A stretch of DNA of 43,800 nucleotides from a virus (IMGVR_UViG_3300038701_001879:1-43800); one strand, 5' to 3'. Numbered from the stretch's first letter, positions 2,365 to 40,869 are shown. A program made the numbers and translations. The notes: generated by a model from the sequence alone, not told the origin.

Positions 2365-3848
2365 CGTATCTCAAGATCGTATTCCTGAATATACAACCGC
2401 GCCTGCCCCATCGCATCACGCAACACCTGATTAATCACCGCATTATCCAAATCCCACAACTTACTCACATCCATCTGCTTAATCCGCTCCATCGCATCAA
2501 GCTCTCGCTGAGTATCATGTGGGCGATTAGCCTTGAGCAAATTCATTTCAGCTTGCATCGATTTTAACTGCGCGCGTTTCTTGTCAATCTGCTTGACATA
2601 AATATGAGACATGTCAGGACGTTCTATTTCTTTGATCGCCAATCCCTCAAGCTGTCGCTCATGTGTCAAAATATCCGCCTCAGCGCGTTTAACCTGTGCC
2701 TGCCATAGCTCAAGCCGATTGTTATCATTCCCGACCAATAGCACCCCGTTTTGTAACGCTGTCTCAATTGCCTCAGTCATCCAACGCTTCAACACATCCA
2801 ATCGAGTAAATGACGGATTCCCCTCACATCGCTTCTGACATCGCAGATACTCCCAGCTGTACCCCCTCGATTGAACCTTTGCATAATTCATATAAGCCCC
2901 ACACGATGCACAATGCACCAGCTTATAAAATGGATTAACCGCCTCGGCACGTGACCCACGCCCACCATTCGCAGACAATCGCGCCTTCAATTCCACAATT
3001 ATTTGTGGTGTACGCTCACCCCATATCGGCTCAATCACGTTATACGCCACATATGCACCATCAGGCAGATGATGACCAGCCTCGAATAACCATTCGCCCT
3101 GTGGCTTGTCTCGGAATTTATATGGCATATGACCAAACATCATCGGATGAAACGCAATGCGCCTCACATAATGATGCTTACTGAAATGATCGAATCCATC
3201 CGCAGTCATCAAACGCGCGCACTCACGATACGATTCACCAGCCAGTAACAAATCCCCTAGCTTACCCATCGCCACCCGTGCAGAACCGCGTATATCTACC
3301 CCGACTAACGTCCCATAGCCATCAAATCGCCTCTCATGCGTCCATGGAATAACACCTGTTGCAGGGATGCCCTTATCCGCTTTATTTCGCCGTGTCTGGA
3401 TTGCCCTCGGTCCATGCAACCGCTTTACATCCGCCTGACTACCAATTGAGCTAATCGCCACCATCGCATCAAAATTATCAGGATTAATCACCCCGATGCC
3501 ATCCGCATACGTAACCGCCCCATGCGCCACAGTAAACTCAATCACATGATTAATCAACCACTTAGCCCGCCCGAATCGCGTTGAATCAATCGCCCATAGC
3601 ACATCAATATCCCGCGCCTCAAGCATCCGATGTAAGTCATCATAGGCACGAATCCCCTGTTTTCGCATCGTATCAAAGAAGGTTGCAGGGTTATCATCCA
3701 TCGCCGACCCCACAAATTCAATTGTTGTTACCCGGTCAAAGTTATTCCGCTCACAAAACAACTCAAACGCGCGCACTTGCGACTCAATACTATGCTGAGC
3801 ATCAGACGATTGCCGAATCCACCCCACCGCATGACCTGTAAAAACCAT
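2355..3848 (-). CDS. Large serine recombinase (phage integrase), 497 aa
   Basis: It catalyses site-specific integration, and excision with a directionality factor, via a Ser-DNA intermediate. The N-terminal resolvase domain shows R-Q-S-S-D (catalytic Ser about residue 14), a D-V-L-W-A-I-D-S-T-R-F-G-R segment near 85-97, and an I-S-S-I-G-S-Q segment near 132. The recombinase domain follows (about 165-300), then a zinc ribbon with C-A-S-C-G near 315 and a second Cys set near 340, then a coiled coil (about 390-440), as in this family. The length is typical. AAGG lies about 10 nt before the ATG. The coding sequence contains a copy of the dispersed palindrome (2993). It is the only integrase in the window, so it presumably drives lysogeny. 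Confidence 0.95.
   Translation of the reverse strand: MVFTGHAVGWIRQSSDAQHSIESQVRAFELFCERNNFDRVTTIEFVGSAMDDNPATFFDTMRKQGIRAYDDLHRMLEARDIDVLWAIDSTRFGRAKWLINHVIEFTVAHGAVTYADGIGVINPDNFDAMVAISSIGSQADVKRLHGPRAIQTRRNKADKGIPATGVIPWTHERRFDGYGTLVGVDIRGSARVAMGKLGDLLLAGESYRECARLMTADGFDHFSKHHYVRRIAFHPMMFGHMPYKFRDKPQGEWLFEAGHHLPDGAYVAYNVIEPIWGERTPQIIVELKARLSANGGRGSRAEAVNPFYKLVHCASCGAYMNYAKVQSRGYSWEYLRCQKRCEGNPSFTRLDVLKRWMTEAIETALQNGVLLVGNDNNRLELWQAQVKRAEADILTHERQLEGLAIKEIERPDMSHIYVKQIDKKRAQLKSMQAEMNLLKANRPHDTQRELDAMERIKQMDVSKLWDLDNAVINQVLRDAMGQARLYIQEYDLEIRLG
2993..3008. repeat. Dispersed palindrome, exact copy
   Basis: CCACAA-TTAT-TTGTGG inside the integrase gene, read there as P-Q-I-I-V. Confidence 0.85.
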
Positions 3849-3894
3849 GTTATAATTACCTTATGTTTATTTTTCCCATAGCAACACACAAACC

Positions 3895-3925
3895 GCCCTC
3901 GTCCTATCGAGGGCAATTCTTTTTC
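3895..3925 (+). terminator. Hairpin with plus-strand T-rich tail, upstream of the integrase
   Basis: GCCCTCG and CGAGGGC form a perfect 7-bp stem with a 6-nt loop, followed by AATTCTTTTTCT on the plus strand. It would stop plus-strand transcripts running antisense through the integrase and insulate the small-gene cluster. On the minus strand it lies in the integrase leader. Confidence 0.55.
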
Positions 3926-3956
3926 TATCCCTTCATTATACACAACCCACCCAATC

Positions 3957-3972
3957 CCACAAAAAATTGTTG
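3957..3972. repeat. Dispersed palindrome, one mismatch
   Basis: CCACAA-AAAA-TTGTTG in the intergenic region between the divergent integrase and small-gene cluster, preceded by AATC as in other copies. Confidence 0.75.
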
Positions 3973-3990
3973 CCTCCCTCCCTGCCCCAC

Positions 3991-4019
3991 CAGACAACCC
4001 GCCCCTTTTTCGCTATACA
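3991..4019 (+). promoter_or_regulatory. Candidate promoter of the four-gene small cluster
   Basis: CAGACA (3991-3996) and TATACA (4014-4019) are 17 bp apart, each matching 4 of 6 consensus positions. It lies about 40 bp before the first start codon and just downstream of a dispersed palindrome copy. Confidence 0.4.
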
Positions 4020-4059
4020 ATAAAGGTATTGAGAGCGAACATTCTAGGAGATGAAGCGG

Positions 4060-4245
4060 ATGAATAAATCTCAACATCCACACAAGCGAATCTATGACAT
4101 TGCTCATGGCATTCAAAGAGGCTGGTTAACTGGTCAAAAGACTTTTGATTATTACCAGCACTTTAAAAACGAATATAAAAAGCGTGGCTGGTTTCATCTA
4201 TGGCTTGGCGCATGGGAATCTATCAATAACGAAAGCGAGGACTAG
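4060..4245 (+). CDS. Small hypothetical protein, 61 aa
   Basis: Not recognised. It is rich in aromatic and basic residues (H-P-H-K-R-I-Y, Y-Y-Q-H-F-K-N-E-Y-K-K-R) and ends in E-S-E-D. I chose this ATG rather than the one 9 bp upstream because AGGAG abuts the earlier ATG but lies 9 nt from this one. It is the first gene of a tight four-gene cluster. Its last codons and stop form part of the repeated junction cassette that supplies the next gene's ribosome-binding site. Confidence 0.7.
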   Translation: MNKSQHPHKRIYDIAHGIQRGWLTGQKTFDYYQHFKNEYKKRGWFHLWLGAWESINNESED

Positions 4246-4252
4246 CGCGATG
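4229..4252 (+). repeat. Start-associated cassette, copy 1
   Basis: AAAGCGAGGACTAGCGC spans the end of one gene, its TAG stop, a GAGG ribosome-binding site and the next ATG. The core recurs before the starts at 4488, 4683 and, on the minus strand, 33237. Confidence 0.85.
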
Positions 4253-4468: not shown

Positions 4469-4490
4469 AAAGCGAGGACTAGCGCGGATG
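4467..4490 (+). repeat. Start-associated cassette, copy 2
   Basis: AAAGCGAGGACTAGCGC again precedes an ATG. Here the upstream gene has already stopped (TAG at 4466-4468), so the cassette is conserved independently of the upstream reading frame. Confidence 0.85.
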
Positions 4491-8056: not shown

Positions 8057-10480
8057 CTATCCCATCGGTATTGCTGGGGTACGTGGATCAGCACCTGCGA
8101 CACTACCACCATTGCGACGTGCACCATCACCACCACCAGAACCAGATCCGCCACCTGCCCCACCGGGCGAACCAGGGTCATTATATTCAACATCAATCGT
8201 CACACTCCACGCGGTATCCACAATCGATTGAATCATTGCCTCAAGACCTGTTACCGCTTCTTCTGCCGCTGATGTATCGGCTTCTATCGGTGTAGTAGAC
8301 AGATCATCCATTGCCGTTTGCACTTCTTCAATACCATCCATAAACGGCTGGACATCAAATGCCCCATTCTCACCATAACCACCAAATCCAAATGCCTCAG
8401 TCCCACCTTCCTCTTGTGGGAAAATGTTATTAGGAACAAGCGTTCCATCAGGACCCATCACCACAGGAATCGACCCACTCCCAGCACCAACCAATTCATC
8501 TTGACCCATGCCAGCAGTTTGACCCGTCCGTATCGCCTCAAGATATGCCTCAAGATAATGCGCCGCCGCATCCGCCCCTTGTGTTTCAGCCATCGCAGCC
8601 AAAGCAGGCGCAATGCTACTCTCAAACGCTTGTGAAACCTCAGTCTCAGACCCAGCCGCCAAATTAAAGGCATCATTGAACGCCCCAGCAATATCCGCAT
8701 CCCCAATCAAACCCTCAATAAAATCCCCAGCCTCGGCTAATTGACCACCGTCACCCTGCCCAAATAATTCAGCCAGTGACAAATCTTCGATACTACGCGC
8801 CATACTCCGCGCATCATCTGCCATCCGCCCAAATTGGTCAGCCATTGCTTGAGCATCGGCTAATTCATCATCACCAATCAAACCCTGTGCATTTAGGCTT
8901 TCAAGCTCTGCCACACGTGCATTGACTTGATCTAATAATCCGTCAAGCTCAGCCACTTCATCAGGATTGGTAAATGTAATCCCATTCCCAGCAATCGTCG
9001 TCTGTGATAACCCGTCATACGCATCTTTAAATGCTGAACGGTCTGCACCAAATCCGCTAATAGCCTCTTGAGCCATCGCCAACTCATCAACCGCATCACC
9101 AGCCCGATCCCACGACTCCTGATACCCAGCAATCATCTGCTGATACTGATACCCTGAACCAGCCGTCATCCGTGCGACTTTTGCCTCGTGCTCATCAACC
9201 GCCGTCCCAGCCCGATCCCATGACTCCTGATACCCAGCGATCATCTGTTCGTACTGATACCCTGAACCAGCCGTCATCCGTGCGACTTTTGCCTCGTGCT
9301 CATCAACCGCCGTCCCAGCCCGATCCCATGACTCCTGATACCCAGCGATCATCTGTTCGTACTGATACCCCGACCCAGAAATCATCCGTGCGACTTTTGC
9401 CTCATGTTGATCTGCCGCATCACCAGCCCGATCCCATGACTCCTGATACCCAGCAATCACCTGCTGATATTCTTGCCCACCACTCACAAGGTTTTCTTGC
9501 ATCCGTTCCAACCGCGCACCATTGTCTAATACGCTATCAAGAACCGATTGAAATTCATCTAATTTCCGCTCTGCGCTTTCATCTATCGCTTGTTGCCTGC
9601 GATTCTCATCAACAGCATCAATACTCTGCCCTGTCGATTCAGAATAAGCCGCAATCCGTGCCGCTTCCAACACATCAAATATATTATTCTCACCCGCAAC
9701 ATTGACAATCCCAGCAGTCGCCTCAACACCTGTCGCAAATTGACCGCCTAATTGTTGCATCAGGTTTGTAACTTTAGTCTCTAAAATTGCCAACTCAGAC
9801 GATGCCACATTCGCCGAATCACCCAGTTGATCGAGCGCATTTGCACCTTCCGCAAATACCGCCATCTTGAAGGCTTCTTCACGATTCGCCGCTTGACCAG
9901 TTTTAATCAACTCATTGATTTCTTCACGCACCTTAGACCCACTGATACCAAATGAATCCAAGCGAGGTATAGACTGGTTCATTAACATCAGAGAGAAATT
10001 CTCTATGCTGGTTGCCGCATCTTCACCCATTGCCGACCCGAGTTTTGTTGCCAACTCAATCACATTATTGAGCTCATCTTCATTACCCGCCAATCCCGAC
10101 AGCAGCAACTTATTAGACGACTCCATTAGCAAGGTATCATCAACCACACCGCCCGTCGTCTGACGTAATCGAGCCAAGACGTTATCATAACCGCCTAATT
10201 CCGTAGTCAACTGACTAAATACAGTCTTCGCTTTATTCGCCTGTACGCCGATCTCATTTAATTCCTGACCAAACGCAACAACACCAGCAAGACCAATGCC
10301 AGCGACCATCCCCTTCATCTCAGTGGACATATCGCCAAATAACTTCTTAGCACCCTTCGCCTTTTTCCCAGCATTATCCGTAGCCGTCCCAGCATCATCC
10401 ATCGACTTCTTATACTTGGACAACACCGTGCTGAAGCTATCAGTCGCTTTAATTGTGATTGTTGCTTCGCGTCCAGCCAT
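8057..10480 (-). CDS. Tape measure protein, 807 aa
   Basis: It is the longest gene of the tail module and sets tail length by spanning the tube lumen; 807 residues at about 0.15 nm each suggest a tail near 120 nm. It is helical and Ala/Gln-rich, with a hydrophobic patch around residues 70-85 (M-V-A-G-I-G-L-A-G-V-V-A) and a Gly/Ser-rich, strand-forming C-terminus. Four tandem 36-residue repeats (G-Y-Q-E-S-W-D-R-A-G) lie about residues 335-460. I prefer the ATG with AAGGAT 8-10 nt upstream over one 69 bp further upstream, which would run through a terminator hairpin. The chaperone genes that normally precede it are separated by an inserted nuclease gene and an opposite-strand membrane gene. Confidence 0.9.
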   Translation of the reverse strand: MAGREATITIKATDSFSTVLSKYKKSMDDAGTATDNAGKKAKGAKKLFGDMSTEMKGMVAGIGLAGVVAFGQELNEIGVQANKAKTVFSQLTTELGGYDNVLARLRQTTGGVVDDTLLMESSNKLLLSGLAGNEDELNNVIELATKLGSAMGEDAATSIENFSLMLMNQSIPRLDSFGISGSKVREEINELIKTGQAANREEAFKMAVFAEGANALDQLGDSANVASSELAILETKVTNLMQQLGGQFATGVEATAGIVNVAGENNIFDVLEAARIAAYSESTGQSIDAVDENRRQQAIDESAERKLDEFQSVLDSVLDNGARLERMQENLVSGGQEYQQVIAGYQESWDRAGDAADQHEAKVARMISGSGYQYEQMIAGYQESWDRAGTAVDEHEAKVARMTAGSGYQYEQMIAGYQESWDRAGTAVDEHEAKVARMTAGSGYQYQQMIAGYQESWDRAGDAVDELAMAQEAISGFGADRSAFKDAYDGLSQTTIAGNGITFTNPDEVAELDGLLDQVNARVAELESLNAQGLIGDDELADAQAMADQFGRMADDARSMARSIEDLSLAELFGQGDGGQLAEAGDFIEGLIGDADIAGAFNDAFNLAAGSETEVSQAFESSIAPALAAMAETQGADAAAHYLEAYLEAIRTGQTAGMGQDELVGAGSGSIPVVMGPDGTLVPNNIFPQEEGGTEAFGFGGYGENGAFDVQPFMDGIEEVQTAMDDLSTTPIEADTSAAEEAVTGLEAMIQSIVDTAWSVTIDVEYNDPGSPGGAGGGSGSGGGDGARRNGGSVAGADPRTPAIPMG
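9101..9470 (-). repeat. 108-bp tandem repeat in the tape measure gene, about 3.5-4 units
   Basis: The same segment recurs at 9101, 9209, 9317 and 9425, a period of exactly 108 bp (36 codons). The two middle units are almost identical in DNA and the outer ones have diverged. The period is in frame, so unit loss or gain would change tail length by about 5 nm steps. Confidence 0.9.
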
Positions 10481-10498
10481 ACCTTCATCCTTAAATGC

Positions 10499-10522
10499 AA
10501 AAAGCCCATCGTCAGATGAGCT
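10499..10522 (-). terminator. Rho-independent terminator immediately before the tape measure gene
   Basis: On the minus strand AGCTCATC pairs with GATGGGCT (8 bp, one G-U, 4-nt loop) and is followed by five T. It lies only about 20 bp before the tape measure ATG, so leftward transcripts from the tail operon must read through it. It most likely came with the inserted cassette next to it. Confidence 0.75.
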
Positions 10523-10543
10523 CTTAATCTTAAACCTATACCC

Positions 10544-10572
10544 CCACAAAAAGTTGTGGTTCTTGCTATAAT
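10544..10572 (+). promoter_or_regulatory. Dispersed palindrome next to an extended -10 promoter
   Basis: CCACAA-AAAG-TTGTGG (10544-10559, exact copy) is followed 5 bp later by TGC-TATAAT (TATAAT at 10567-10572), an extended -10 motif. The palindrome covers the -35 zone, an ideal operator position. The promoter would drive the small membrane gene that starts 35 bp downstream. Confidence 0.65.
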
Positions 10573-10606: not shown

Positions 10607-10849
10607 ATGAAAAAGCCATCATGGTGGATATTCTACAAAATATTGATTGTCTTCATGTCTGTATCGGGCATGTGCTTGATGATCGGTAACTTATTCGTGG
10701 GCTTATTCTTCTTAATCTTCTCAATCCTGCTCTGGGGGACACAATACCGCCGTGAACAGAAGTGGGATCAAGAACGCCGCCACCAAGAAACCCTCGATGT
10801 CATGCGGATGCAAGCAGGTCACAACCCACAAGGCAAACCCCACCAATAA
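10607..10849 (+). CDS. Small membrane protein on the opposite strand inside the tail operon, 80 aa
   Basis: Two adjacent hydrophobic helices (about residues 8-28 and 30-46) are followed by a basic, Gln/Arg-rich cytoplasmic tail (R-R-E-Q-K-W-D-Q-E-R-R-H). AAGGA lies about 9 nt before the ATG. It is the only plus-strand gene between 5 and 42 kb. It has its own extended -10 promoter and is bounded by exact copies of the dispersed palindrome (10544 and 10852), the layout of a 'moron' expressed from the prophage. Superinfection exclusion is a typical role for such genes, but nothing in the sequence proves it. Confidence 0.75.
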   Translation: MKKPSWWIFYKILIVFMSVSGMCLMIGNLFVGLFFLIFSILLWGTQYRREQKWDQERRHQETLDVMRMQAGHNPQGKPHQ

Positions 10850-10851
10850 CC

Positions 10852-10867
10852 CCACAATTTTTTGTGG
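10852..10867. repeat. Dispersed palindrome, exact copy
   Basis: CCACAA-TTTT-TTGTGG in the 19-bp gap between the convergent stops of the membrane gene and the nuclease-like gene. The following bases GGACT are shared with the copy at 30230. Confidence 0.85.
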
Positions 10868-10868
10868 A

Positions 10869-11546
10869 CTATTCCCCATCGGCTTTGTCGGTGGGGCGTT
10901 TCATCAAGTCTTCTGAAATTTTTCGCCGTATATCTTCAATCAACTCCCACCGATTTAAGTAAGGCAACATATCTTCGTCTGACAATGCCTTACCGCTTCT
11001 GTTTCTAGCGGTTTTAAGGTCTCTATCATATCGATAAATAATACGATCTTTAAGAAGCCCCTCATTGTCATAAAAGATTGGATGAGATGATGGGAAAACA
11101 TAATAATCAGAATTAACACCACACAAAACAACTACATGCCCACGAATTTTATCGATTGTGTTGCCAGTTGCCCAACTATAACCATTTCTTCTATATTTTG
11201 AGCTTTTAACTTCAATATGAACACAACCCCAAGAAACCAAATCAACCCATTTTGATTGATTATCATTTTTACCAAAAATAGTATAGATACCTTGGTTATT
11301 TAGTAAACGCTTGACTTCTGCCTCGTTGAAGTGAGGAACAGAACCGCGCACTTTATAAATAGCGCAGATTTCCTTATGATGAGTTTTACAATATGTTAAT
11401 CGTCCATCTTTATTTTGTTTTGACGGATAAAATTCAGATAATGGTTTTACTTTGTCACATTTTGGACAATATTTGCCATGTTGAGGTTCTTTCCTAAACA
11501 TTGGTAATTGTTTCTTCACCACCATCTTCACTATCCTCACATCCAT
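10869..11546 (-). CDS. Putative PD-(D/E)XK endonuclease with N-terminal zinc-binding motif
   Basis: The N-terminal part has the treble-clef-like pattern C-P-K-C ... F-Y-P-S-K-Q-N-K-D-G-R-L-T-Y-C-K-T-H-H common to phage homing-type endonucleases. The central part has W-V-D-L-V then, ten residues on, E-V-K-S-S: the spaced D...E-x-K of a PD-(D/E)XK nuclease core, followed by strands and basic residues. I infer a DNA endonuclease, perhaps a free-standing homing enzyme, because it interrupts the otherwise fixed chaperone-tape measure order. The start is uncertain: the first ATG is given, and an ATG at 11525 has GAGG-like spacing. The gene overlaps a 51-codon gene by about 53 bp. Confidence 0.65.
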   Translation of the reverse strand: MDVRIVKMVVKKQLPMFRKEPQHGKYCPKCDKVKPLSEFYPSKQNKDGRLTYCKTHHKEICAIYKVRGSVPHFNEAEVKRLLNNQGIYTIFGKNDNQSKWVDLVSWGCVHIEVKSSKYRRNGYSWATGNTIDKIRGHVVVLCGVNSDYYVFPSSHPIFYDNEGLLKDRIIYRYDRDLKTARNRSGKALSDEDMLPYLNRWELIEDIRRKISEDLMKRPTDKADGE

Positions 11547-14031: not shown

Positions 14032-14706
14032 CTATTCCTTCACAGCCACCAACCGCACATAAAACTCACTCACAACATTGATATGAATTTGCTTGGCTCT
14101 CCAAAATGCAGGGGTATCCTGCCCATTCACAAAATAAGGCTCACCAGCAAAATATTCAGTCGGGCGCATCGGTGTTTCTTCAATCTGACGAAAATGCAAC
14201 TGCCGATCATACTCAAACGGGGCATCAGGGTTAGGCGACATGCTATGACTAAATGAATGCTCTGTTAAATACCGTGTATGACTCGGATCAATCAACCCAC
14301 CATTACTAAACCCATACGGGCTGAGGATATGAACCACTGCCCCATGCTCAAGCACACGCCACAACTCACTAAAAAATGCAAACCACCCATCCTGCATTTC
14401 TGAAAGTTTATGATTAGGAACATTGTCATTAACAACCAACCCGCCTACCACAACTTTCTGAGGTTCATTTAACCTTATCTCATGCGGTATATGCTCACAC
14501 ACATGGGCTAATAATGCCCCACTAAAGCTATCCGAAGGCAAGTCCCACGGATACTTAAACAAATCCATGCACTTATCCACACCCTGAACCATATTTTTAT
14601 CAATATTGACCCACTCAGGATACGAATAAATATCAGATTCAACCAATCCATGATGGGCTGGCTGTTCAGCAGGCAATATAATCCGCCCACATCCCAAATT
14701 AAGCAT
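14032..14706 (-). CDS. Class I SAM-dependent methyltransferase, 224 aa
   Basis: Motif I L-N-L-G-C-G stands at residues 2-7, an acidic strand end V-N-I-D about 33-36, and a post-core L-L-A-H-V-C-E-H-I-P-H near 68-78, as in Methyltransf_11-type enzymes that act on small molecules, sugars or glycans. F-F-S-E-L-W-R-V-L-E-H-G fits the usual 'L-x-x-x-x-R-V-L-K-P-G-G' helix. The ATG overlaps the stop of the upstream glycosyltransferase gene; a longer open frame upstream lies wholly inside that gene and is rejected. Sharing an operon with three glycosyltransferases, it probably methylates or caps a sugar on a virion component or host glycan. Confidence 0.8.
   Translation of the reverse strand: MLNLGCGRIILPAEQPAHHGLVESDIYSYPEWVNIDKNMVQGVDKCMDLFKYPWDLPSDSFSGALLAHVCEHIPHEIRLNEPQKVVVGGLVVNDNVPNHKLSEMQDGWFAFFSELWRVLEHGAVVHILSPYGFSNGGLIDPSHTRYLTEHSFSHSMSPNPDAPFEYDRQLHFRQIEETPMRPTEYFAGEPYFVNGQDTPAFWRAKQIHINVVSEFYVRLVAVKE
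14448..14463. repeat. Degenerate relative of the dispersed palindrome
   Basis: CCACAACTTTCTGAGG has two mismatches to the palindrome and is read in the gene as P-Q-K-V-V. It may be chance or a decayed copy. Confidence 0.3.
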
Positions 14707-15598
14707 CGGTTTTTCTGACACGTTTGCCTCGTTTCTTTTTAGTCTGATATGTTTTCTGATACCAGAAAACAATACTTTTTGCCCGCGCATCCCATGTGTG
14801 CTGTGCTAACCATTCCGTACCTGCACCAAATGGGACACCGCCCTTAACCTTCTCAATCGCATCATCAATATCTTTATAGAAAGTAAATGCACCAGGGTCA
14901 TACTCAATATCATGCAAATCGGCAATATCATGGGTCAACACAATACAACCCAATCCAGCGGTTTCAAACACACGCTGATTCAAGTCGCCCTTAGCACTCA
15001 CATTCAACGCATATCGAGCGTTTTGATACGCTTGTGCATAGTCATCATATAAAAGCCCCATACCTGCCAGAACTGATAATCCAGCTTTATTCATCGCCTC
15101 AATCATCGCCTGACGCTCAGGGTACATCACACCCACTATCGCCACATCATATACACGCTCATCAAAAGGAATCTCACTCGGCGTAAATGCAACGGGGTCA
15201 TACCCACACGGAAGCCAAGTCACATCTTTTTCGGACATATCCATAATTGATGTTGCCTTGTGCGCCAAGAAATAATGAGCAATCCCATGTTGCCGATAAT
15301 CACGCACATGATTGTCCACACCGAATACCACATGAGGGACATCACTATACACAGGGTGATGATATGCCCACGCCGATTCCATCACAATAACTAAATCAGG
15401 AGTCCAATCAGGGAACACCGTATCCAATGCACCATCGCTATAATGAATATGCCGAGGATGCACCCGACCGCCCCAAATCTGGTCTAATGTCGAATTACCA
15501 ACACTACGGACATCATGACCAAGCCGTTTGAGTGCATCTTTGACATACCGCCCCGAACAAACAGGGTAGTGAATATAAGCTAACAAAATTTTTGTCAT
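14699..15598 (-). CDS. CgeB-like glycosyltransferase (GT-B fold), 299 aa
   Basis: The N-terminal half starts with K-I-L-L-A-Y-I-H-Y and contains a D-L-V-I-V-M-E-S strand. The C-terminal half has D-V-A-I-V-G and the acceptor/donor motif L-N-Q-R-V-F-E-T-A-G-L-G-C-I-V-L-T near residues 215-231, characteristic of Glyco_trans_1_2/CgeB proteins. A very basic tail (K-K-K-R-G-K-R-V-R-K) ends it. It would transfer a sugar from an activated donor. ATGA overlaps at both ends place it firmly in one translationally coupled unit. Confidence 0.82.
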   Translation of the reverse strand: MTKILLAYIHYPVCSGRYVKDALKRLGHDVRSVGNSTLDQIWGGRVHPRHIHYSDGALDTVFPDWTPDLVIVMESAWAYHHPVYSDVPHVVFGVDNHVRDYRQHGIAHYFLAHKATSIMDMSEKDVTWLPCGYDPVAFTPSEIPFDERVYDVAIVGVMYPERQAMIEAMNKAGLSVLAGMGLLYDDYAQAYQNARYALNVSAKGDLNQRVFETAGLGCIVLTHDIADLHDIEYDPGAFTFYKDIDDAIEKVKGGVPFGAGTEWLAQHTWDARAKSIVFWYQKTYQTKKKRGKRVRKTDA

Positions 15599-16380
15599 GA
15601 CCAGAAATTCTCTTTCACTGCTCGTATATCAGGCTCAATCATCCCTGTATCCACCCATTTATTTTTGAACGCCATCGCATTCTGCATAAAATAGGGGCTT
15701 CCACCAGTAGAACCAACTGTATGAATAAATGTCACACTCGGCTCATACCACACCGAATAACCAGCCTGCACAACACGAGCGCACAAATCGACATCTTCGA
15801 AATAGGCTTTGTGATAGGTCTCCGCATCAAACCCACCCAATTCACGGAACAATTCCGCACGAATCGCCAATACAGCACCCGTCACAGCAGGCACTTCCTC
15901 AGCCACATTCGCAGGCGGATAATCTTTATCAGCATATCCCAAATAGCGATGCGTCGGTTGACACTTGCCATCAAAGTGAATTCCAGCATGTTGTATCGAC
16001 CCATTAGGGAACAATAACCGCCCCCCAACAATCCCAACCTTAGGATTCTCAAATGCCCGTAATAAGGCTTCATCCCAACCATCACTCAACCCGTATACAC
16101 CATAGCAATCCTGATTAAAAAATAACAGAATATCGCCACTCGCACGGTTTGACCCCACATTACAATTACCACCAAACCCCAAATTAACAGGGTTATGCTC
16201 AGCACTCGCAATACAAGGATGGATATAAGGAATTAAACTCCGTGGGCTATCATCCTGCACAATATACTCATGCGGATGTTTAGCCGTTGCCTGCAAGCTA
16301 ATTAACGCCTGCATCAAGGTCATAAAATCAAAGGGGTTATGCTCACCCACATAAGCTGGCACAATCACACTTAATTTCAT
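15595..16380 (-). CDS. Family 2 glycosyltransferase (GT-A fold), 261 aa
   Basis: L-S-V-I-V-P-A-Y at the start, N-L-G-F-G-G-N-C-N-V-G near residue 67, the metal-binding position F-F-N-Q-D near 88-92 (an N-x-D variant of D-x-D), then G-A-V-L-A-I-R near 165-171 and the catalytic F-E-D-V-D-L-C near 190-196. This is the rhamnosyltransferase-like branch of GT2. It uses a nucleotide-sugar donor. Coupled by ATGA to its neighbours. Confidence 0.88.
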   Translation of the reverse strand: MKLSVIVPAYVGEHNPFDFMTLMQALISLQATAKHPHEYIVQDDSPRSLIPYIHPCIASAEHNPVNLGFGGNCNVGSNRASGDILLFFNQDCYGVYGLSDGWDEALLRAFENPKVGIVGGRLLFPNGSIQHAGIHFDGKCQPTHRYLGYADKDYPPANVAEEVPAVTGAVLAIRAELFRELGGFDAETYHKAYFEDVDLCARVVQAGYSVWYEPSVTFIHTVGSTGGSPYFMQNAMAFKNKWVDTGMIEPDIRAVKENFWS

Positions 16381-17675
16381 ACAGCACCCTCTTTCATGAC
16401 TTCTTCAATGTCACCGTCAATCTGAATCATCTGCAGACCATCAGGAGGTAAAACAGGTTGAGCAATCGGCACAGGGGGTGGGCTTGCTTGTGGGGGTGGG
16501 TTGTCTTCACGATTTTTCAAGACCTCACACAACACATCATAAACCGCATCCACTGCCATATCCCAGCTTTGCGCCCGTGACCACTTCATACCTTCCTGTG
16601 CAATCACTTGACGCAGGGCTTTATTGCTATATAAAGCATTCAGTTTAGCCACAAAATCAGTCACATCAGGGTGATAATCCATTGCCCCACCCCATGTGGA
16701 ATAATTCTTAAATTCAATCGCCTTGACCAACATCCCACGACCATCACCGACAACTTCAGGACCAGAACAATAATCCAATGCCATACTGACGACACCACAC
16801 GCCATCGCCTCAGGTAAAGGCAAACCATACCCCTCACGATGGGACAGTACAACATGAGCATCTAACAAGTTATAACGGTCTCGCAGGCTGTGGATGCCTT
16901 TTTGTTGCACATCACGCCGAAAGATAAGCCGACTATAATCCCAGTCATTCTGAGTGCATAAATCCTTAATATTCCACCCAGCAGGACTAACCTCAGCCAT
17001 GTCCAACAGATAAAAAGCATTCGGTTTCCCCTTCGCAAACTTGAAGAAGCCCTCAAGCATCAATGGGATAGCCTTACGTCCTTGATTTTGTGCCATCGTA
17101 CCCAAAATAAACGCATCAGTAGATACACCGAGTTGCTCACGTAATTCAAGCCGTTTAGCCTCTGGCAACTGATAAAACTCATTCGGATTGATACCAGGGC
17201 GACACAATTTGGCATCCACACCAGCCTCTAAATAAGCATCCACCCCAAATTGAGAGATAGATAGCGCACCATCCGCCTCTTTCATCATCTCCACCCACTG
17301 CGGGGCAATCGGGACACCATCCACAGGTGTAATCACCACAAACTTATGCCGACTCCAGTCAATCGGCGCATTCCGTACCGCCTCAGCATAAGGCGCATCC
17401 TGACACACCATCACCACATCAGGTTGAGTCGCATGAACCAGCTTAACAACATCCCCAACCCAATCCTGCCCAAATGCTAGCTTAAGTTGAAGGCTTGCGA
17501 CATGATACGGTAAGGCTTGCCCATCCATCACAGCAGGCAACAACCCATCATATCCAAACGATGCCCCTAATATATGGAAGCCCCGACGATGCAATCGAAC
17601 ACCGATATTATCAGTAATCCGACCATATCCACTTGATACACCCGAATCCCCTATCAATAGGATTTTATCATTCAT
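16377..17675 (-). CDS. Family 4 glycosyltransferase (GT-B fold), 432 aa
   Basis: The N-terminal Rossmann half begins K-I-L-L-I-G-D-S-G-V-S-S-G-Y-G-R. The C-terminal half has the E-x7-E motif in R-E-G-Y-G-L-P-L-P-E-A-M-A-C-G, a donor-binding signature of GT4 retaining enzymes. A Pro-rich tail (about residues 390-412) follows the catalytic part and may be a linker to another protein. It is first in the coupled glycosylation block, and its start overlaps the coiled-coil gene. Confidence 0.88.
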   Translation of the reverse strand: MNDKILLIGDSGVSSGYGRITDNIGVRLHRRGFHILGASFGYDGLLPAVMDGQALPYHVASLQLKLAFGQDWVGDVVKLVHATQPDVVMVCQDAPYAEAVRNAPIDWSRHKFVVITPVDGVPIAPQWVEMMKEADGALSISQFGVDAYLEAGVDAKLCRPGINPNEFYQLPEAKRLELREQLGVSTDAFILGTMAQNQGRKAIPLMLEGFFKFAKGKPNAFYLLDMAEVSPAGWNIKDLCTQNDWDYSRLIFRRDVQQKGIHSLRDRYNLLDAHVVLSHREGYGLPLPEAMACGVVSMALDYCSGPEVVGDGRGMLVKAIEFKNYSTWGGAMDYHPDVTDFVAKLNALYSNKALRQVIAQEGMKWSRAQSWDMAVDAVYDVLCEVLKNREDNPPPQASPPPVPIAQPVLPPDGLQMIQIDGDIEEVMKEGAV

Positions 17676-21527: not shown

Positions 21528-22577
21528 TTACCTTTTCAATTTTGATATACGAGATTGCCAAGCGTTAAAATCTTCATCGGCACGCGGTTTAGAATCACTC
21601 GCCTTTGCAACAGGATCAGGCTTATAACTCTCCTGTACCCGTCGTTTCGGCAAATTATCAACCGTTTGACGCTGACCACGCTTGGCTTTTTGTTCCTCTG
21701 CTTGGATGATCCCAGCCCATTCATCAGGCTCAGATTCAACCAATCGCGGACGTAAATCCGCTTTCCACTCAGCAGGTAAACGAACCTTCTGCAATGTCTC
21801 AACCACAATAAGCTCACGTCTTGCCTTATCCAATTCGGTTAAGGTAGCCTCGTGTTCTTTTAACACTGCACGACGTTTATCTTCTGCCTCTTTTAACGCC
21901 TCTTTGGCACGGTCAGCCTCAGCCTTTGCTGTCTTAACCGCGCTCGTTTGACGCGCCAATTTCATTTCTTTCCGCAACCGCTCCACATAATCAGGACGCG
22001 ATTCCAGCCATTCCTCATAATCGGCACTTTCCATAACCGCCGATACAATATCCCCACCATCACTGGCAATCAATTTATCAAATCCGCCACCAGCAGCAGG
22101 GGTTGTCACATCATCCACACTCACCACACTGGTAATCTCAGCAACTTCCATCATGCCATCGTCACGCTTTTCACCACGTCCCAACGCATTAATCGAAGCC
22201 CCAAATAGTGAAGGGGGTGCATTCTCAAATACAACTTGTTGCGCCAATTGCCACGCGTCTTGCCCCTTTTGATTGGTCGTGAAGTGACGTGTTCCCACAA
22301 TCGCCTTTGACGCTTCATCAAAATGGACATCGGATAACCACCCTGTAATATCTGTAATCGACCGCTCGGGTCGGTTACGCATATCATTACGCGACGGGTG
22401 GTCAGCATAGGTCTTAGCACCCTCAAATAAAGAAACAGCCCCTTTTAGGACTGTTTCTGGATAATGCCGTTTATTTTTACTCTCACCCACCGTGATGATC
22501 TTTTGTTTTACGGTGCGTGTCTCTTTGTCAGCCTCTAATAACTCAACTGACTCCACAAAAAGTTGTGTTCTCATCAT
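21528..22577 (-). CDS. Prohead protease fused to scaffold-like coiled coil, 349 aa
   Basis: The N-terminal about 170 residues show the pattern N-K-R-H-Y-P-E-T-V-L, A-K-T-Y-A-D-H-P-S and R-S-I-T-D-I-T-G-W-L seen in phage head maturation proteases. Conserved His (in D-H-P) and a later Ser (F-G-A-S-I-N) are candidate catalytic residues. Residues about 195-270 form a long charged coiled coil like a scaffold, then a disordered basic tail. It would template the procapsid and then digest the scaffold. The start overlaps the upstream stop (TGATG) with AAGGAT upstream. A dispersed-palindrome copy encodes residues right after the start. Confidence 0.78.
   Translation of the reverse strand: MMRTQLFVESVELLEADKETRTVKQKIITVGESKNKRHYPETVLKGAVSLFEGAKTYADHPSRNDMRNRPERSITDITGWLSDVHFDEASKAIVGTRHFTTNQKGQDAWQLAQQVVFENAPPSLFGASINALGRGEKRDDGMMEVAEITSVVSVDDVTTPAAGGGFDKLIASDGGDIVSAVMESADYEEWLESRPDYVERLRKEMKLARQTSAVKTAKAEADRAKEALKEAEDKRRAVLKEHEATLTELDKARRELIVVETLQKVRLPAEWKADLRPRLVESEPDEWAGIIQAEEQKAKRGQRQTVDNLPKRRVQESYKPDPVAKASDSKPRADEDFNAWQSRISKLKR
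22553..22568. repeat. Dispersed palindrome, one mismatch, at a gene start
   Basis: CCACAA-AAAG-TTGTGT begins about 10 bp inside the protease gene, immediately after its start codons, and is read there as T-Q-L-F-V-E, a different frame from the P-Q-K-V-V seen in other genes. Confidence 0.75.
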
Positions 22578-27366: not shown

Positions 27367-27388
27367 CTCATATCCCTACTCATAAATC

Positions 27389-27404
27389 CCACAACTTTTT
27401 GTTG
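27389..27404. repeat. Dispersed palindrome, one mismatch, before the small terminase gene
   Basis: CCACAA-CTTT-TTGTTG, sharing the flank AAATC with the copy at 36456 (21 identical bases in all). It lies in a 77-bp intergenic gap. Confidence 0.8.
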
Positions 27405-27443
27405 CCTAATCACTCGGAGTAATCCGCACCAGCCCACGCCGTG

Positions 27444-29377: not shown

Positions 29378-30163
29378 TTACAGTATCTTCAAAATTTCAA
29401 GCGCGACTGTACCGAGCATACCCGTTCCGAGCCCCCAGCCGATTCCTCTCGACACCACAAACTTAGCCGATTCTTTAACATGTTCCATCAAATCACGTCG
29501 GCGTTTATCTTGGAGAGCTTTTAATCGTTCACGCTCTAATTCACGTTCCTGAGTCTCTCTCAATAGTCTGCTGTTTTCCTGTATACCCTGCATTGCTTGC
29601 ATGAATGAGGATTCCAATGTAGGCAACTTATCCTCGACCTTATTCATTCGCCCCACAAGCCCAGCGTTTATCCCATCCCCACGAATATTATTATCAATCC
29701 GTTGTAATAACCGTGTACTTGCAGTTTGCGTATGCTCGATTTTACCCAAGGCACTCTCAAGCTGGGTTTGCCTCTCACGAAACAATAAAAATTCGTCGCT
29801 GTGAGAATCTATTGTGGACTGATGGTCAGCTAATCTCTGGTTAACCGTCTGCATGTAAGTCTGAAATTGACCCGAAATCGTGCCAAATCCTGTTTTCATT
29901 TCACGATTCAACCCAGCCATCACATCACCCACGATTTGCTGAATCTGTTGAGTGGTCGAATAATCCCGCAATGACTGAACCAAACGCTCAGAAACCAATG
30001 CTTCAACATCGGAGCGCGACAACACCTTACGATCCACCCGATGCACATCCTCGCTTAATGAATCAACAGACCCTCGCAAGTCGCTAATCTGACCCGCCAA
30101 ATCATCAACTGATCCTCTCAATTCACTATTAGGTTGTTCAAGTTGTTCAGTTGGTTGATTCAC
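29378..30163 (-). CDS. Long coiled-coil protein with C-terminal membrane segment, 261 aa
   Basis: It is predominantly coiled coil (residues about 15-230: L-R-G-S-V-D-D-L-A-G-Q-I, repeated D-L-R-G-S-V-D-S-L, R-E-R-Q-T-Q-L-E-S). It ends in a basic stretch and one hydrophobic helix (G-I-G-W-G-L-G-T-G-M-L-G-T-V-A-L). The topology suggests a membrane-anchored rod, which could be a lysis accessory, an anchor or a fibre-like factor. GTG start with AGG-rich upstream. A terminator lies between it and the preceding gene, so it may have its own promoter in the 30.25-30.32 kb gap. Confidence 0.65.
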   Translation of the reverse strand: MNQPTEQLEQPNSELRGSVDDLAGQISDLRGSVDSLSEDVHRVDRKVLSRSDVEALVSERLVQSLRDYSTTQQIQQIVGDVMAGLNREMKTGFGTISGQFQTYMQTVNQRLADHQSTIDSHSDEFLLFRERQTQLESALGKIEHTQTASTRLLQRIDNNIRGDGINAGLVGRMNKVEDKLPTLESSFMQAMQGIQENSRLLRETQERELERERLKALQDKRRRDLMEHVKESAKFVVSRGIGWGLGTGMLGTVALEILKIL

Positions 30164-30222: not shown

Positions 30223-30245
30223 AAAAAGCCCACAATTTTTTGTGG
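30223..30245 (-). terminator. Dispersed palindrome acting as a terminator
   Basis: Here the exact palindrome copy CCACAA-TTTT-TTGTGG (30230-30245), read on the minus strand, is followed by GGGC and then six T. It therefore makes a plausible intrinsic terminator between two minus-strand units. This is the only copy followed by a T-run. Confidence 0.6.
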
Positions 30246-30323
30246 ACTCAGAAACTATTTTTCACTGTATACCTCTATCGTATCACATCACATCTACATA
30301 CTGACAACAACATTACGGAAACA

Positions 30324-36153: not shown

Positions 36154-36307
36154 TGTCAATTCCCTCACTTTCATCATATTCACCTTCAATGTCCCAACCC
36201 TGACCCGCCCGAATCAAGGCGCACACAAACAAATAACCCAATATATAGCTAATCAGGCACAATACAGCGATAGCCCCATCCAAAATCCCACCAACCGAAG
36301 CCATCAT
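36125..36307 (-). CDS. Small single-span membrane protein, 60 aa
   Basis: One hydrophobic helix (about residues 8-32: I-A-V-L-C-L-I-S-Y-I-L-G-Y-L-F-V-C-A-L-I) and an acidic C-terminus. AGGAGGTGG precedes the ATG, the strongest ribosome-binding site in this region. It overlaps its upstream neighbour by 4 bp. Role unknown. Confidence 0.65.
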   Translation of the reverse strand: MMASVGGILDGAIAVLCLISYILGYLFVCALIRAGQGWDIEGEYDESEGIDNVTTIGSTD

Positions 36308-37254
36308 TCCACCTCCTGAATATCGTCAGCTTTTCGCCATGCACTCATATCAAAAATAATCTTGTAATCCACACGATACCAATCACCATCTATCGCACCG
36401 ATAGTCCCCGACTGACACAATCCTTCAATCTTGACCGCATCACCAACAGAAAATCCCACAACTTTTTGTTGACTTTCCTCCACAACTTGCGGGGGGGCTG
36501 GCATATACCAACCACCAGGGTTAAATGCTGGAGGCAGGGCAGGTTGCTCAATCACATCATGCACAACTGCACAAGACCGACTCGGGATTTTAAACGTACT
36601 AAAATCCACATCATCCACAATCGGCATCCCCTCAAGTGGGGTAAATTCTTTTTTGAGCTTCCCACGACTCCCATCTTTCTTTTTTGCATATGCTTTTTCT
36701 GTCGTATATAAAACACCGCCCACAATTGCACATACAATAGGCAACTCAACCGCCTCAGATTCATCAAAATCGGTAGGCACATCAATTTTATTTTCTGTTT
36801 TCGGCAAAATATGCGTTGACCAGAAATTTTTTGGCACAATCGCCGACCCCACAATTTTTTGTGGGATTGCCAATGGCTCAGGCTTCTTCACCGTGATAAC
36901 AACCTCTGCTGGAATACGCTCTTTGAGCTTACCCATCGGATCAATCCGAATTAATCCCAGCCCAGAAGACTTGATTTTTTCATTTAATCCCTGAATGCTG
37001 ATGACATCCGCAAATTCACCACCGTTAAACTTATCTTTTTTCATCGCCACATACGGATGATTCGCCTTCAACCACTCAGCCGACCACCCATAAGCGTGAT
37101 AACCCGTCGCAAACGTGACCATCACAATTGTTTGTGGGTTCTCTTTCTCCAACTCCAAGCACCGCACCACAAATGGCGGTACACGTCGCACCCGTCGCAA
37201 TGCAATCGGCACGTATTCAGGCTTCTGTTTTCCTGTTTGCTTATCTAAATTCAT
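36304..37254 (-). CDS. Hypothetical protein with C-terminal SH3/KOW-like barrel, 316 aa
   Basis: Not recognised as a whole. The N-terminal 110 residues (E-N-P-Q-T-I-V-M-V-T-F-A, Y-G-W-S-A-E-W-L-K) suggest an alpha/beta module. The last 50 residues (F-S-V-G-D-A-V-K-I-E-G and D-G-D-W-Y-R-V-D-Y-K) suggest a small barrel that could bind nucleic acid. Remarkably, three copies of the dispersed palindrome (36456, 36849, 37122) lie in this one gene, read as Q-K-V-V, P-Q-K-I-V and P-Q-T-I-V. The start is set by the repeated AGGAGAGATTGAG cassette. It lies in the replication block. Confidence 0.6.
   Translation of the reverse strand: MNLDKQTGKQKPEYVPIALRRVRRVPPFVVRCLELEKENPQTIVMVTFATGYHAYGWSAEWLKANHPYVAMKKDKFNGGEFADVISIQGLNEKIKSSGLGLIRIDPMGKLKERIPAEVVITVKKPEPLAIPQKIVGSAIVPKNFWSTHILPKTENKIDVPTDFDESEAVELPIVCAIVGGVLYTTEKAYAKKKDGSRGKLKKEFTPLEGMPIVDDVDFSTFKIPSRSCAVVHDVIEQPALPPAFNPGGWYMPAPPQVVEESQQKVVGFSVGDAVKIEGLCQSGTIGAIDGDWYRVDYKIIFDMSAWRKADDIQEVE
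36456..36471. repeat. Dispersed palindrome, one mismatch
   Basis: CCACAA-CTTT-TTGTTG in a coding region; identical over 21 bases to the intergenic copy at 27389. Confidence 0.8.
36849..36864. repeat. Dispersed palindrome, exact copy
   Basis: CCACAA-TTTT-TTGTGG with C and G extending each arm by a further base, followed by GATT. With the AATC flank of other copies this implies a longer ideal palindrome. Confidence 0.85.
37122..37137. repeat. Dispersed palindrome, one mismatch
   Basis: TCACAA-TTGT-TTGTGG, third copy within the same gene. Confidence 0.7.
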
Positions 37255-37948: not shown

Positions 37949-38737
37949 CTAACTCTCAATAAGGTCAGCCCACCAGTTATCTTGGGGCTGTACCGACTCA
38001 ATACGAATAACTTTCCCTTTTTCGTTGTTAAAACCTGTGACGATGTAATTCAAACTGCTTGGTACAATCTTTAAATCAATACACCGCTTCAAAACCATCG
38101 TTAATCGCTCATTACCACAATCCTCTGCCAACATCTGAGCGATGATATGCCGTTCTGTCATTTTTGGGTCACGTTTAAAAACCGTCCGAAACAATCCATC
38201 TATCGCCAAATTATCAAAATTTAAAAAATCATCATCATCATCAATATTCGTAACTGGAGGGAATCCTAAATTCTCAGGAGACTCTTTTGATGATGATTGA
38301 TTCTTGATAGATTCTTCTTTTGATTGATTATTGATAGGTTCTTGATAGGTTTGTGGGACATTTTGTCCGTATTGTTGGGACATTTTGTCCGTACTTTGGG
38401 AAATAATGTCCGTATTGGTTGGGACATTTTGTCCGTATTGTTGGGACATTTTGACCGTATTGCCTGTATCAGATACGGTCAATTTGTCCGTATTGATTCG
38501 GTATAAAATAGCCGCCCCACGCTTTCCCATCCGCACAATATATCCTTGATTTTCGAGGTCAATCACGTTCCGTTGAGCAGTCTTTTCACTACACCCCATT
38601 TTTCGTGCCAATTCCTGCTTAGATGGGAACACACTCGACCCATCATCCTTTGCGTAATCAGCCAATGCCAACAACGTAAACTTGAGCGATTTGGGGAGGT
38701 CCACTCCCCATACTAAAGCCGACAATTTAAAACTCAT
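37949..38737 (-). CDS. Winged-helix replication initiator, 262 aa
   Basis: Residues about 5-85 form a phage replisome-organiser-type winged helix: K-S-L-K-F-T-L-L-A-L-A-D-Y-A, then F-P-S-K-Q-E-L-A-R-K-M-G-C-S-E-K-T-A-Q-R-N-V-I-D-L-E-N-Q-G-Y-I. A long polar linker containing two copies of M-S-Q-Q-Y-G-Q-N-V-P follows, then an acidic stretch and a helical C-terminal domain (M-T-E-R-H-I-I-A-Q-M-L) that may recruit helicase. The DNA of the linker is the iteron array. This is the lambda-O arrangement of initiator and origin. No helicase or loader gene is recognised, so host factors are presumably used. Confidence 0.82.
   Translation of the reverse strand: MSFKLSALVWGVDLPKSLKFTLLALADYAKDDGSSVFPSKQELARKMGCSEKTAQRNVIDLENQGYIVRMGKRGAAILYRINTDKLTVSDTGNTVKMSQQYGQNVPTNTDIISQSTDKMSQQYGQNVPQTYQEPINNQSKEESIKNQSSSKESPENLGFPPVTNIDDDDDFLNFDNLAIDGLFRTVFKRDPKMTERHIIAQMLAEDCGNERLTMVLKRCIDLKIVPSSLNYIVTGFNNEKGKVIRIESVQPQDNWWADLIES
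38190..38345. other. AT-rich tract flanking the iterons
   Basis: A very AT-rich stretch within the initiator gene, including a CATCATCATC run and repeats of TTGATTGATT and TTGATAG (38285-38345), lies directly next to the iterons. This suits a DNA-unwinding element. Confidence 0.5.
38355..38495. repeat. Putative replication origin: iteron array with inverted repeat
   Basis: GGGACATTTTGTCCGTATTG recurs with starts at 38355, 38377, 38398 (degenerate), 38421 and 38443, plus a divergent sixth at about 38476. Each unit has an internal palindrome GGACA-TTT-TGTCC. The 21-23 bp spacings put the sites on one face of the helix and are not multiples of a codon throughout, so the DNA, not the peptide, is conserved. 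TTGACCGTAT (38451-38460) and ATACGGTCAA (38473-38482) form a perfect 10-bp inverted repeat at the array's edge. Confidence 0.8.
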
Positions 38738-39870: not shown

Positions 39871-39952
39871 CTTTAAAATTCCTTTCTCCCGAATCACCCT
39901 CATTTTTGAGTTACAATAAGGGTGTCCGAGTAAATATTCACTTCCTTGGGAG

Positions 39953-39983
39953 GGTCAGGAGGCGTTACACCCCTGACCTTTTT
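39953..39983 (+). terminator. Hairpin with plus-strand T-run downstream of the 39986 gene
   Basis: GGTCAGG (39953-39959) and CCTGACC (39972-39978) pair perfectly, followed by five T on the plus strand. Again no plus-strand gene is near; it resembles the hairpins at 3895 and 35709. Confidence 0.5.
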
Positions 39984-39985
39984 AT

Positions 39986-40234
39986 TTACAGATTAGATAA
40001 ATAACGGATTACATCTTCGGTGTCATAACATTCGTCTACAAACATTGTGTATCGCCCTGCACCCTCATATGCCTCAAAAATATGACCATACTGGGGGGCG
40101 TGTTCAAGAACTGCAATCGCCTTATCGTTTGACCCAAAAGAGATAAACAATAAGTTGTCGCCACCCCGATTGATAACTATTTCTGCAATGGGTTGTGGGG
40201 GTGGGTTGGGGGTTGCTTTTTCGTCTGGATTCAT
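39986..40234 (-). CDS. Small hypothetical protein, 82 aa
   Basis: Not recognised. A Pro-rich N-terminus (N-P-P-P-Q-P) is followed by a compact alpha/beta unit (L-L-F-I-S-F-G-S-N-D-K-A-I-A-V-L, Y-T-M-F-V-D). Its start uses the third copy of the GAGATTGAG cassette. A hairpin separates it from the ERF gene. Confidence 0.6.
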   Translation of the reverse strand: MNPDEKATPNPPPQPIAEIVINRGGDNLLFISFGSNDKAIAVLEHAPQYGHIFEAYEGAGRYTMFVDECYDTEDVIRYLSNL

Positions 40235-40296
40235 CTCAATCTCTCACTCTCGTTGACTACATATAAATGTTGGAATATGAAACAATAAGTTGTTGC

Positions 40297-40869
40297 CTAA
40301 TACGGAACATCCATCACTTGCCACGGAACACCAGGTAACTTCCGACTCGGCAAAGCATTATGTTTCCGCCGACGATACCCATTCACTTGGTTAACGGTAA
40401 CCTTATACGCCTCGGCATACTGACGAACCGTCAACCACACAGGCGTTTCGTAGGGGCTGGGCTTGCCCTGTCCGTTTATTGTTGCCATAACCGCCAACGT
40501 TTCATCAGAGACCACAACTTTTTGTGGCGTTGCTTTGCGTGGCTCTTGACGCATGTCCGATGGGGCAGTCGGCTCAATCACCTTCAACTGCGCGCGTAAC
40601 TCTGCAATTTCTTCACTCAACGACTGAATAACATCATCTGCCTTTGTTGCCGCATGAACAATCATTTCAACATCCGCAATCCGAAACGATGTCAGACCCT
40701 GAAAATTTTCTTTGGGGTTTTTGGCGACATAATCAATCCGCCGATTTAATCGCTGGCATACTTGAATGACCGTTGGCTTTGAGCGTTTATCATGCTCAAT
40801 AATCGAAATCGCAGACCGCGACAACACCTTCATTCGATGGTTAGCGGATTGAGCAACTCGCCGACCCAT
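40297..40869 (-). CDS. DNA-binding protein with C-terminal excisionase-like helix-turn-helix, 190 aa
   Basis: The N-terminal part (S-I-I-E-H-D-K-R-S-K-P-T-V-I-Q-V-C-Q-R-L-N-R-R) is itself basic and helix-turn-helix-like. A short coiled coil (I-Q-S-L-S-E-E-I-A-E-L-R-A-Q-L) follows. The C-terminus V-W-L-T-V-R-Q-Y-A-E-A-Y-K-V-T-V-N-Q-V is a MerR/Xis-type helix-turn-helix ending in a G-V-P-W-Q-V wing. Roles as early regulator or recombination directionality factor are both possible. ATG overlaps the upstream stop, with GAGGTGGCGTG before it; a palindrome copy lies inside. Confidence 0.7.
   Translation of the reverse strand: MGRRVAQSANHRMKVLSRSAISIIEHDKRSKPTVIQVCQRLNRRIDYVAKNPKENFQGLTSFRIADVEMIVHAATKADDVIQSLSEEIAELRAQLKVIEPTAPSDMRQEPRKATPQKVVVSDETLAVMATINGQGKPSPYETPVWLTVRQYAEAYKVTVNQVNGYRRRKHNALPSRKLPGVPWQVMDVPY
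40512..40527. repeat. Dispersed palindrome, exact copy
   Basis: CCACAA-CTTT-TTGTGG in the linker of the DNA-binding protein gene, read as P-Q-K-V-V. A weaker relative lies at about 40281-40297, just after the gene's stop. Confidence 0.85.

Follow-up and report, generated by a model that had tools for sequence, protein, structure and literature searches.

What is a single palindromic word doing at many places in the genome of a temperate phage, within genes as well as between them? The question was raised by CCACAA-N4-TTGTGG in IMGVR_UViG_3300038701_001879:1-43800 (all 43,800 nucleotides analysed, hereafter the window), which probably represents a temperate phage of Chloroflexota bacteria not described before. 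An earlier note on this sequence had reported at least 11 copies and offered three explanations: operators or stoperators of a phage repressor, a host-wide iterated palindrome such as HIP1, or a small mobile palindrome. The interpretation favoured here, at a probability of about 0.55, is that 13 copies are lineage-specific dispersed operators of the phage, which resemble stoperators in their distribution but are symmetric.

Copy number and symmetry of the sites

The window contained six exact copies of CCACAA-N4-TTGTGG and six with one mismatch. With up to two mismatches allowed there were 15 matches, compared to 2.5 in dinucleotide shuffles (none of 100 shuffles reached 15). The core ACAA-N4-TTGT occurred 14 times at a spacing of four bases and 0-3 times at each other spacing between 0 and 20. 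When all 5-mers with spacers of 0-16 were ranked as inverted repeats, a procedure in which the word was not chosen beforehand, CACAA-N4-TTGTG was the top-ranked inverted repeat of the genome by a wide margin (ln p of -25.5 versus -13.5 for the best of 60 simulated genomes). All six exact and five one-mismatch copies reported previously were recovered, but that tally had omitted a one-mismatch copy at 1217 and a copy with two or more mismatches at 40280. Thirteen sites formed a clear class (numbered 1-13 along the window), and the 14th core match (40145..40160), which has flanks off the consensus and another codon phase, is probably a chance occurrence and was set aside.

The 13 sites are 22 bp long with the consensus ANNCCACAA-YTTT-TTGTGGNNT (written out as a 22-mer, ANNCCACAATTTTTTGTGGNNT), and the half-site consensus is TTGTGGNNT in both halves (28 half-sites). 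The two bases of the GG were present in 20/28 and 24/28 half-sites, TTGT being invariant because the core is defined by it, and the spacer was nearly always an A-tract (YTTT or AAAR). Conservation extended beyond the 16 bases of the word: in the core-aligned sites, A was found at position -5 in 11/14 and T at position 16 in 12/14, and the pair -5/16 was A-T in 11/14. This outermost symmetric base, 11 bp from the centre, corresponds to half-site position 9, which was T in 23/28 half-sites (p = 3×10−9). The pairs -3/14 and -4/15, located inside the outer A-T pair, were complementary in just 2/14 and 1/14 sites. Changes in the arms affected one side at a time and were uncompensated, and the pair -1/12 was unpaired in 5/14 sites. 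Given that a hairpin or cruciform needs pairing at the two inner positions while a dimer touching both halves does not, a protein dimer is favoured, and the extended symmetry combined with one-sided changes points to a dimeric DNA-binding protein and not to an RNA hairpin or a mobile palindrome. Scored with a position matrix the 13 sites reached 17-27 bits, while the best of all other matches in the genome reached 10 bits, a gap that is partly built in since the matrix was scored on the same sites that built it. Outside the 22 bp the flanks vary among copies, although some are alike by eye over a wider stretch (TTGTGGACT, AATCCCACAA), as had been noticed before.

Placement in genes and gene junctions

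Intergenic DNA makes up 9.3% of the window and yet held seven of the 14 core sites (p = 1×10−4), the other seven being coding. The seven intergenic core copies compare with a mean of 0.1 and a maximum of 3 in shuffles. For the coding copies, synonymous codons were shuffled inside each gene so that protein and codon use were preserved. Exact coding copies numbered 3 versus 0.17 in the shuffles (0/2000 reached 3) and core coding copies 7 versus 2.2 (7/2000 reached 7). Shuffled codons, considered in the earlier note as a possible source of similar counts, did not reproduce the observed numbers; the coding excess is real, and codon and amino-acid make-up account for part of it. The coding copies were read as PQKVV-like or TQLFV peptides, in agreement with the first description, and all six good coding copies share one codon phase. 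A shared phase is what one would predict for sites tolerated at places where the protein sequence can accommodate them; by our reading, sites in the other phases would require cysteine, or histidine and tryptophan.

The sites lie in gene junctions, in the first codons of the prohead protease gene, on both sides of a plus-strand membrane-protein gene and inside three genes; those upstream of genes precede integrase, terminase small subunit, exonuclease and two more genes. Site 1 (1214..1235, ACACAACAAAATCTTGTGGCAT, 23.5 bits) is intergenic, 72 bp upstream of the plus-strand exonuclease gene (1304-2311). The intergenic site 3 (3954..3975, 24.5 bits) lies upstream of the integrase gene and can be read on the minus strand as the -35 element of TTGTGG-N16-TATAAT, as the earlier note had proposed for one copy; perfect TATAAT hexamers were found near both 3957 and 10544. 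Site 7 (27386..27407, 24.5 bits), also intergenic, precedes the start of the terminase small subunit gene by about 23 bp. The exact intergenic site 8 (30227..30248, 26.6 bits) lies upstream of gene 29378-30163, and positions 30226-30249 score as a terminator-like hairpin with a T run on the minus strand, which agrees at the level of prediction with the claim that one copy works as a terminator stem. Site 12 (40277..40298, 18.5 bits), intergenic and upstream of gene 39986-40234, has kept the core but has degenerate outer bases.

Two exact copies flank the plus-strand gene for a small membrane protein (10607-10849), confirming that an opposite-strand gene is bounded by 10544 and 10852. Site 4 (10541..10562, 17.8 bits) is located upstream of this gene, 7 bp from a TATAAT, and lacks the outer A/T pair; site 5 (10849..10870, 26.4 bits) is located between the convergent genes 10607-10849 (plus strand) and 10869-11546 (minus strand). 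As a side observation, the membrane-protein gene and the adjacent gene, which is endonuclease VII/HNH-like (together 10607-11546), are part of a region that in a syntenic relative (L228, described below) is shorter by about 700 bases, and neither gene was found there. Site 6 (22550..22571, 22.0 bits), at copy 22553, covers the first codons of the prohead protease gene (21528-22580) and so overlaps near-start codons, in line with the copy described as abutting a start codon. Well inside genes are the exact site 2 (2990..3011, 24.9 bits) in the serine integrase gene (2355-3848), three sites in gene 36304-37254, namely site 9 (36453..36474, read QQKVV, 24.0 bits), the exact site 10 (36846..36867, PQKIV, 26.9 bits) and site 11 (37119..37140, PQTIV, 17.2 bits), and the exact site 13 (40509..40530, PQKVV, 26.1 bits) in gene 40297-40872.

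Distribution of the word in bacterial genomes and related phages

A profile of the portal protein matched 49/301 Chloroflexota genomes (up to 150 bits), 0/146 Cyanobacteria and 4/149 Planctomycetota (at most 60 bits), which among the three phyla sampled this way indicated Chloroflexota as the likely host phylum; Cyanobacteria and Planctomycetota were rejected as hosts on the same counts. The exact word occurred 0-2 times per genome in 300/301 Chloroflexota genomes, like the reversed control, and five times in one metagenome-assembled genome (MAG) of the Anaerolineaceae. A host-wide palindrome of the HIP1 type was not seen in these 301 genomes, which represent the probable host phylum, the actual host genome not being available. 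The word shares with HIP1 its shortness, its palindromic form and its presence in coding and non-coding DNA, but differs in not being iterated in the sampled genomes of the probable host phylum.

The outlier MAG (G001, 4.1 Mb) had 5 exact copies and 29 with at most one mismatch, compared to 0 and 10 in the control. In this genome (loci L207-L211) there is a dispersed-palindrome family with paired changes, in which CCACAA-N4-TTGTGG occurs together with 12 copies of CCGCAA-N4-TTGCGG, often flanked by AGTCC...GGACT, and which looks like a structural repeat. A host regulon was considered for these copies and rejected, the genes beside them being unrelated. Elsewhere in Chloroflexota a single form, CCACAACATCTTGTGG, recurred in about ten genomes (e.g. 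G041, G108, G116, G212 and G220), which suggests one conserved site or codon stretch, and the repeats in locus L227 were set aside as longer host-type repeats.

Scanning IMG/VR for the word returned 72 contigs, nearly all with one copy and with no enriched group, which is about chance level. The corresponding scan of genome contigs gave taxonomically scattered matches, the recurrent sets being Bartonella terminator-like hairpins and an Acetobacteraceae element. The latter, GTTKTCCACAAYTTTTTGTGG, is common to five Acetobacteraceae MAG contigs (L096, L119, L144, L152 and L158) in otherwise differing GC-rich sequence and appears as a conserved element. A resemblance to DnaA, Rex, NrdR and LexA boxes was considered, but word and flanks do not fit their consensus sequences.

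No close relatives were found in phage and plasmid records, window 1-25000 had no DNA match in phage records, and no relatives were returned with ERF and integrase as search baits. IMG/VR contained near relatives for the late genes. Two of these, L078 and L077, are 99.4% identical to each other and have 67% DNA identity to the window over 18.4-26.7 kb. L078 had three matches of 19-21 bits to the site matrix, one of them at the same codons as 22553, where the core of site 6 is kept. L228 (G605), syntenic with window 5.0-26.9 kb at a protein identity of 39-76%, had no sites of this class. L228 has a palindrome of its own, CGTAA-N4-TTACG, in three exact copies and one copy with one change (2111, 3974, 9550 and 15663), all of them in gene junctions and upstream of starts. 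A different junction palindrome in L228 is as expected if related phages differ in binding specificity. At copy 22553, the only site with homologous relatives, the codons of L078 and L228 aligned in frame without gaps and all differences were substitutions. The proposal of a small mobile palindrome is therefore not borne out here, the site having been gained or lost by substitutions without gaps and without any shared insertion boundary seen. A more distant relative, L230, has dispersed repeats resembling ACTGGTAA-N3-TTACCAGT in 3-4 copies (2132, 8158, 12673 and 16133).

Candidate binders, known systems and alternative explanations

The phage encodes terminase, portal, capsid and tape measure proteins, a serine integrase, an ERF recombinase, a lambda-O-like initiator and a CI-like XRE repressor (42188..42541, plus strand). 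The divergent region of the CI-like gene (42018-42187) has two perfect copies of TGGTA-N8-TACCA (42019-42036 and 42062-42079) and none of ACAA-N4-TTGT. This pair, located between the XRE repressor gene and a divergent helix-turn-helix (HTH) gene, is not dispersed elsewhere and probably constitutes the immunity operators. Given that another operator pair is present in the divergent region and the dispersed word is absent from it, the XRE repressor, named in the earlier note among possible binders, is probably not the protein that reads the dispersed sites. Candidate binders are two small HTH proteins encoded on the minus strand, a 72-aa LuxR/GerE-like protein (761..979) with weak Pfam matches below the cut-off and a 76-aa HTH_28 protein (41787..42017), which is the first leftward gene. 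The product of gene 40297-40872 has an HTH-like part at its C-terminus as well.

In the scheme that we favour, a dimeric sequence-specific DNA-binding protein would bind the 22-bp sites, and this protein would most likely be encoded by the phage, given that the word differs from one relative to another and is no repeat in the genomes sampled from the host phylum; it would be distinct from the CI-like repressor. As the sites are spread over junctions, gene starts and tolerant coding stretches, the bound protein would shut down or block prophage transcription at many points. The bias towards gene junctions suggests silencing or a roadblock as the likeliest use.

The closest known system is the set of 17-bp dispersed repeats TGTTCGG-NNN-CCGAACA found in 34 copies in Cluster O (Corndog group) mycobacteriophages, and the match is one in kind (PMC4351075). 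Those repeats were published in 2015 without known function, a dimeric regulator being suspected; they are absent from host genomes, the phages have no integrase, the spacer is TTT or AAA in 29/34 copies without meaningful orientation and the flanks are described just as G/C rich (PMC4351075). No later explanation of them was found in the literature searched. In both systems a phage-specific, dyad-symmetric word with conserved arms occurs at gene junctions, close to gene starts and within genes, the A-tract spacer (here YTTT/AAAR in most sites) is unoriented, and a segment that relatives lack can lie between two copies. The systems differ in that the half-site is unrelated, the phages show no kinship, the host phylum is another, the spacer is 4 here and 3 there, there are 13 copies instead of 34, and the present phage has a further symmetric A/T pair in the flanks as well as an integrase.

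The stoperators of Cluster A phages (L5, TipsytheTRex) are 13-mers without symmetry. A monomer binds them, their orientation follows transcription, the repressor that reads them also binds its early promoter, and related phages differ in site sequence (PMC9283540, PMC6550527). What they have in common with the present sites is the scattering of many repressor-type sites over the genome of a temperate phage, frequently in short gaps between genes. With respect to three defining features the present sites differ, being palindromic, unoriented and accompanied by other operators in the immunity region. Of the three explanations offered in the earlier note, operators or stoperators therefore fit best, as sites of a dimer type, but the L5 type specified there does not hold for palindromic sites without consistent orientation. 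In the Bacillus phage SPbeta a 15-bp word, SPBRE, is bound by MrpR, with peaks in promoter regions and a binder of recombinase fold (PMC10516654). There, too, a word is repeated at several prophage places and read by one phage master repressor, showing that master repressors with such words exist beyond the classical immunity layout (PMC10516654); in contrast to the recombinase-fold binder of SPbeta, no such protein was identified here.

Several observations weigh against dispersed silencing operators. Hexamers resembling -10 boxes were found near 3/7 intergenic sites compared to a background of 43%, i.e. without enrichment. With boxes of this kind just as frequent in the rest of the intergenic DNA, single sites may have a promoter role, and the overlap with promoters read at 3957 does not extend to a general rule. 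Five of the 13 copies are located well within genes. Oriented by the A-tract spacer, eight core sites point one way and six the other, mixed even within the leftward genes, and this lack of relation to the direction of transcription makes a one-way block of the L5 type unlikely. The HTH proteins named above are no more than candidate binders, and the divergent region of the CI-like gene carries another operator. The Cluster O authors held a transcriptional role of their repeats to be unlikely (PMC4351075). The host counts cover the probable phylum, the actual host genome not having been found, and the palindrome of L228 is borderline in simulation (0/100 reached it, by a small margin) and has few copies (three exact and one near).

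Some of these points would suit the main rival, which we consider unlikely: a dimeric phage protein could bind the sites for genome organisation (compaction, partition or segregation, self-marking) and not for transcription. Sites across coding and non-coding DNA, the lack of promoter enrichment nearby and the doubts of the Cluster O authors are all compatible with this. It accords less well with the location of half of the sites in gene junctions; furthermore, none of the proteins scanned was recognised as ParA/ParB or as another organising protein, and a serine integrase makes plasmid partition unnecessary. Temperate phages often employ host regulators, and the sites might instead be operators of a host transcription factor recruited by the prophage, for example a stress or SOS regulator. 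The outlier Anaerolineaceae MAG, with its excess of exact and near copies, is in favour of a host factor, but its copies show no common regulon and belong to a family with CCGCAA-N4-TTGCGG that looks structural. With the other 300 Chloroflexota genomes at control-like counts and the word missing from L228, this explanation seems somewhat less likely still.

Explanations without a DNA-binding protein fare worse. CCACAA-loop-UUGUGG transcripts could form a 6-bp stem with a 4-base loop and act as terminators, processing sites or antitermination signals, for which 30226-30249 with its T run provides an example. This is nevertheless improbable as an account of the whole class: the arms change without compensation (5/14 sites unpaired at -1/12), the conserved outer A-T pair is set apart by two non-pairing positions, the loop would be YUUU or AAAR depending on an orientation that is independent of transcription, and no Rfam match was found in the window. 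Slightly more improbable is a mobile or copied element of the repetitive extragenic palindrome or miniature inverted-repeat transposable element kind, spreading through phage and host. The longer flanks common to some copies, and the two copies that bracket a gene in a region shorter in L228, would be in line with mobility; against it are the gapless, in-frame counterparts of 22553 in L078 and L228, the variable flanks with no common boundary or target duplication seen, and the absence of multi-copy occurrence in the 301 Chloroflexota genomes save the one outlier. Coincidence arising from codon and amino-acid preferences (PQKVV-like linkers) and AT-rich gaps is very improbable, given that neither the exact coding copies (0/2000 shuffles) nor the intergenic core copies (maximum 3 in shuffles) were reproduced, even if the six good coding copies share a codon phase and codon shuffles yield about two core matches.

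For dispersed operators read by a phage-encoded dimer, the question can be put to a direct test with purified proteins and short DNA, as the candidate binders are a handful of small HTH proteins. The architecture of the Cluster O repeats, with palindrome, A-tract spacer and mixed placement, recurs here under a different word in a temperate phage unrelated to them, and a syntenic relative has its own palindrome, suggesting a recurring phage control element. More tentatively, Chloroflexota temperate siphophages might use a second regulator besides the CI-like repressor, with scattered symmetric operators that switch sequence between close relatives, ACTGGTAA-N3-TTACCAGT of L230 perhaps included; this would be a stoperator-like silencing based on palindromes and evolved independently of that in actinobacterial phages.

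Some other features of the genome were also observed. About 126 bases are common to both ends of the record (window 1-126 and 43675-43799), and therefore the genome is probably complete and either circularly assembled or terminally redundant. The lambda-O-like initiator gene (37949-38737) contains GGACAAAATGTCC five to six times at intervals of about 22 bp (38356-38489), and these copies are probably replication-origin iterons. Methyltransferase-like and glycosyltransferase-like genes are located among the capsid and tail genes (14032-17675), and such cargo has likewise been reported near the capsid genes of Corndog (PMC4351075). In the tape measure protein (8057-10549), a unit of the form GSGYQYEQMIAGYQESWDRAG...EAKVARM is repeated in tandem, with about four copies.

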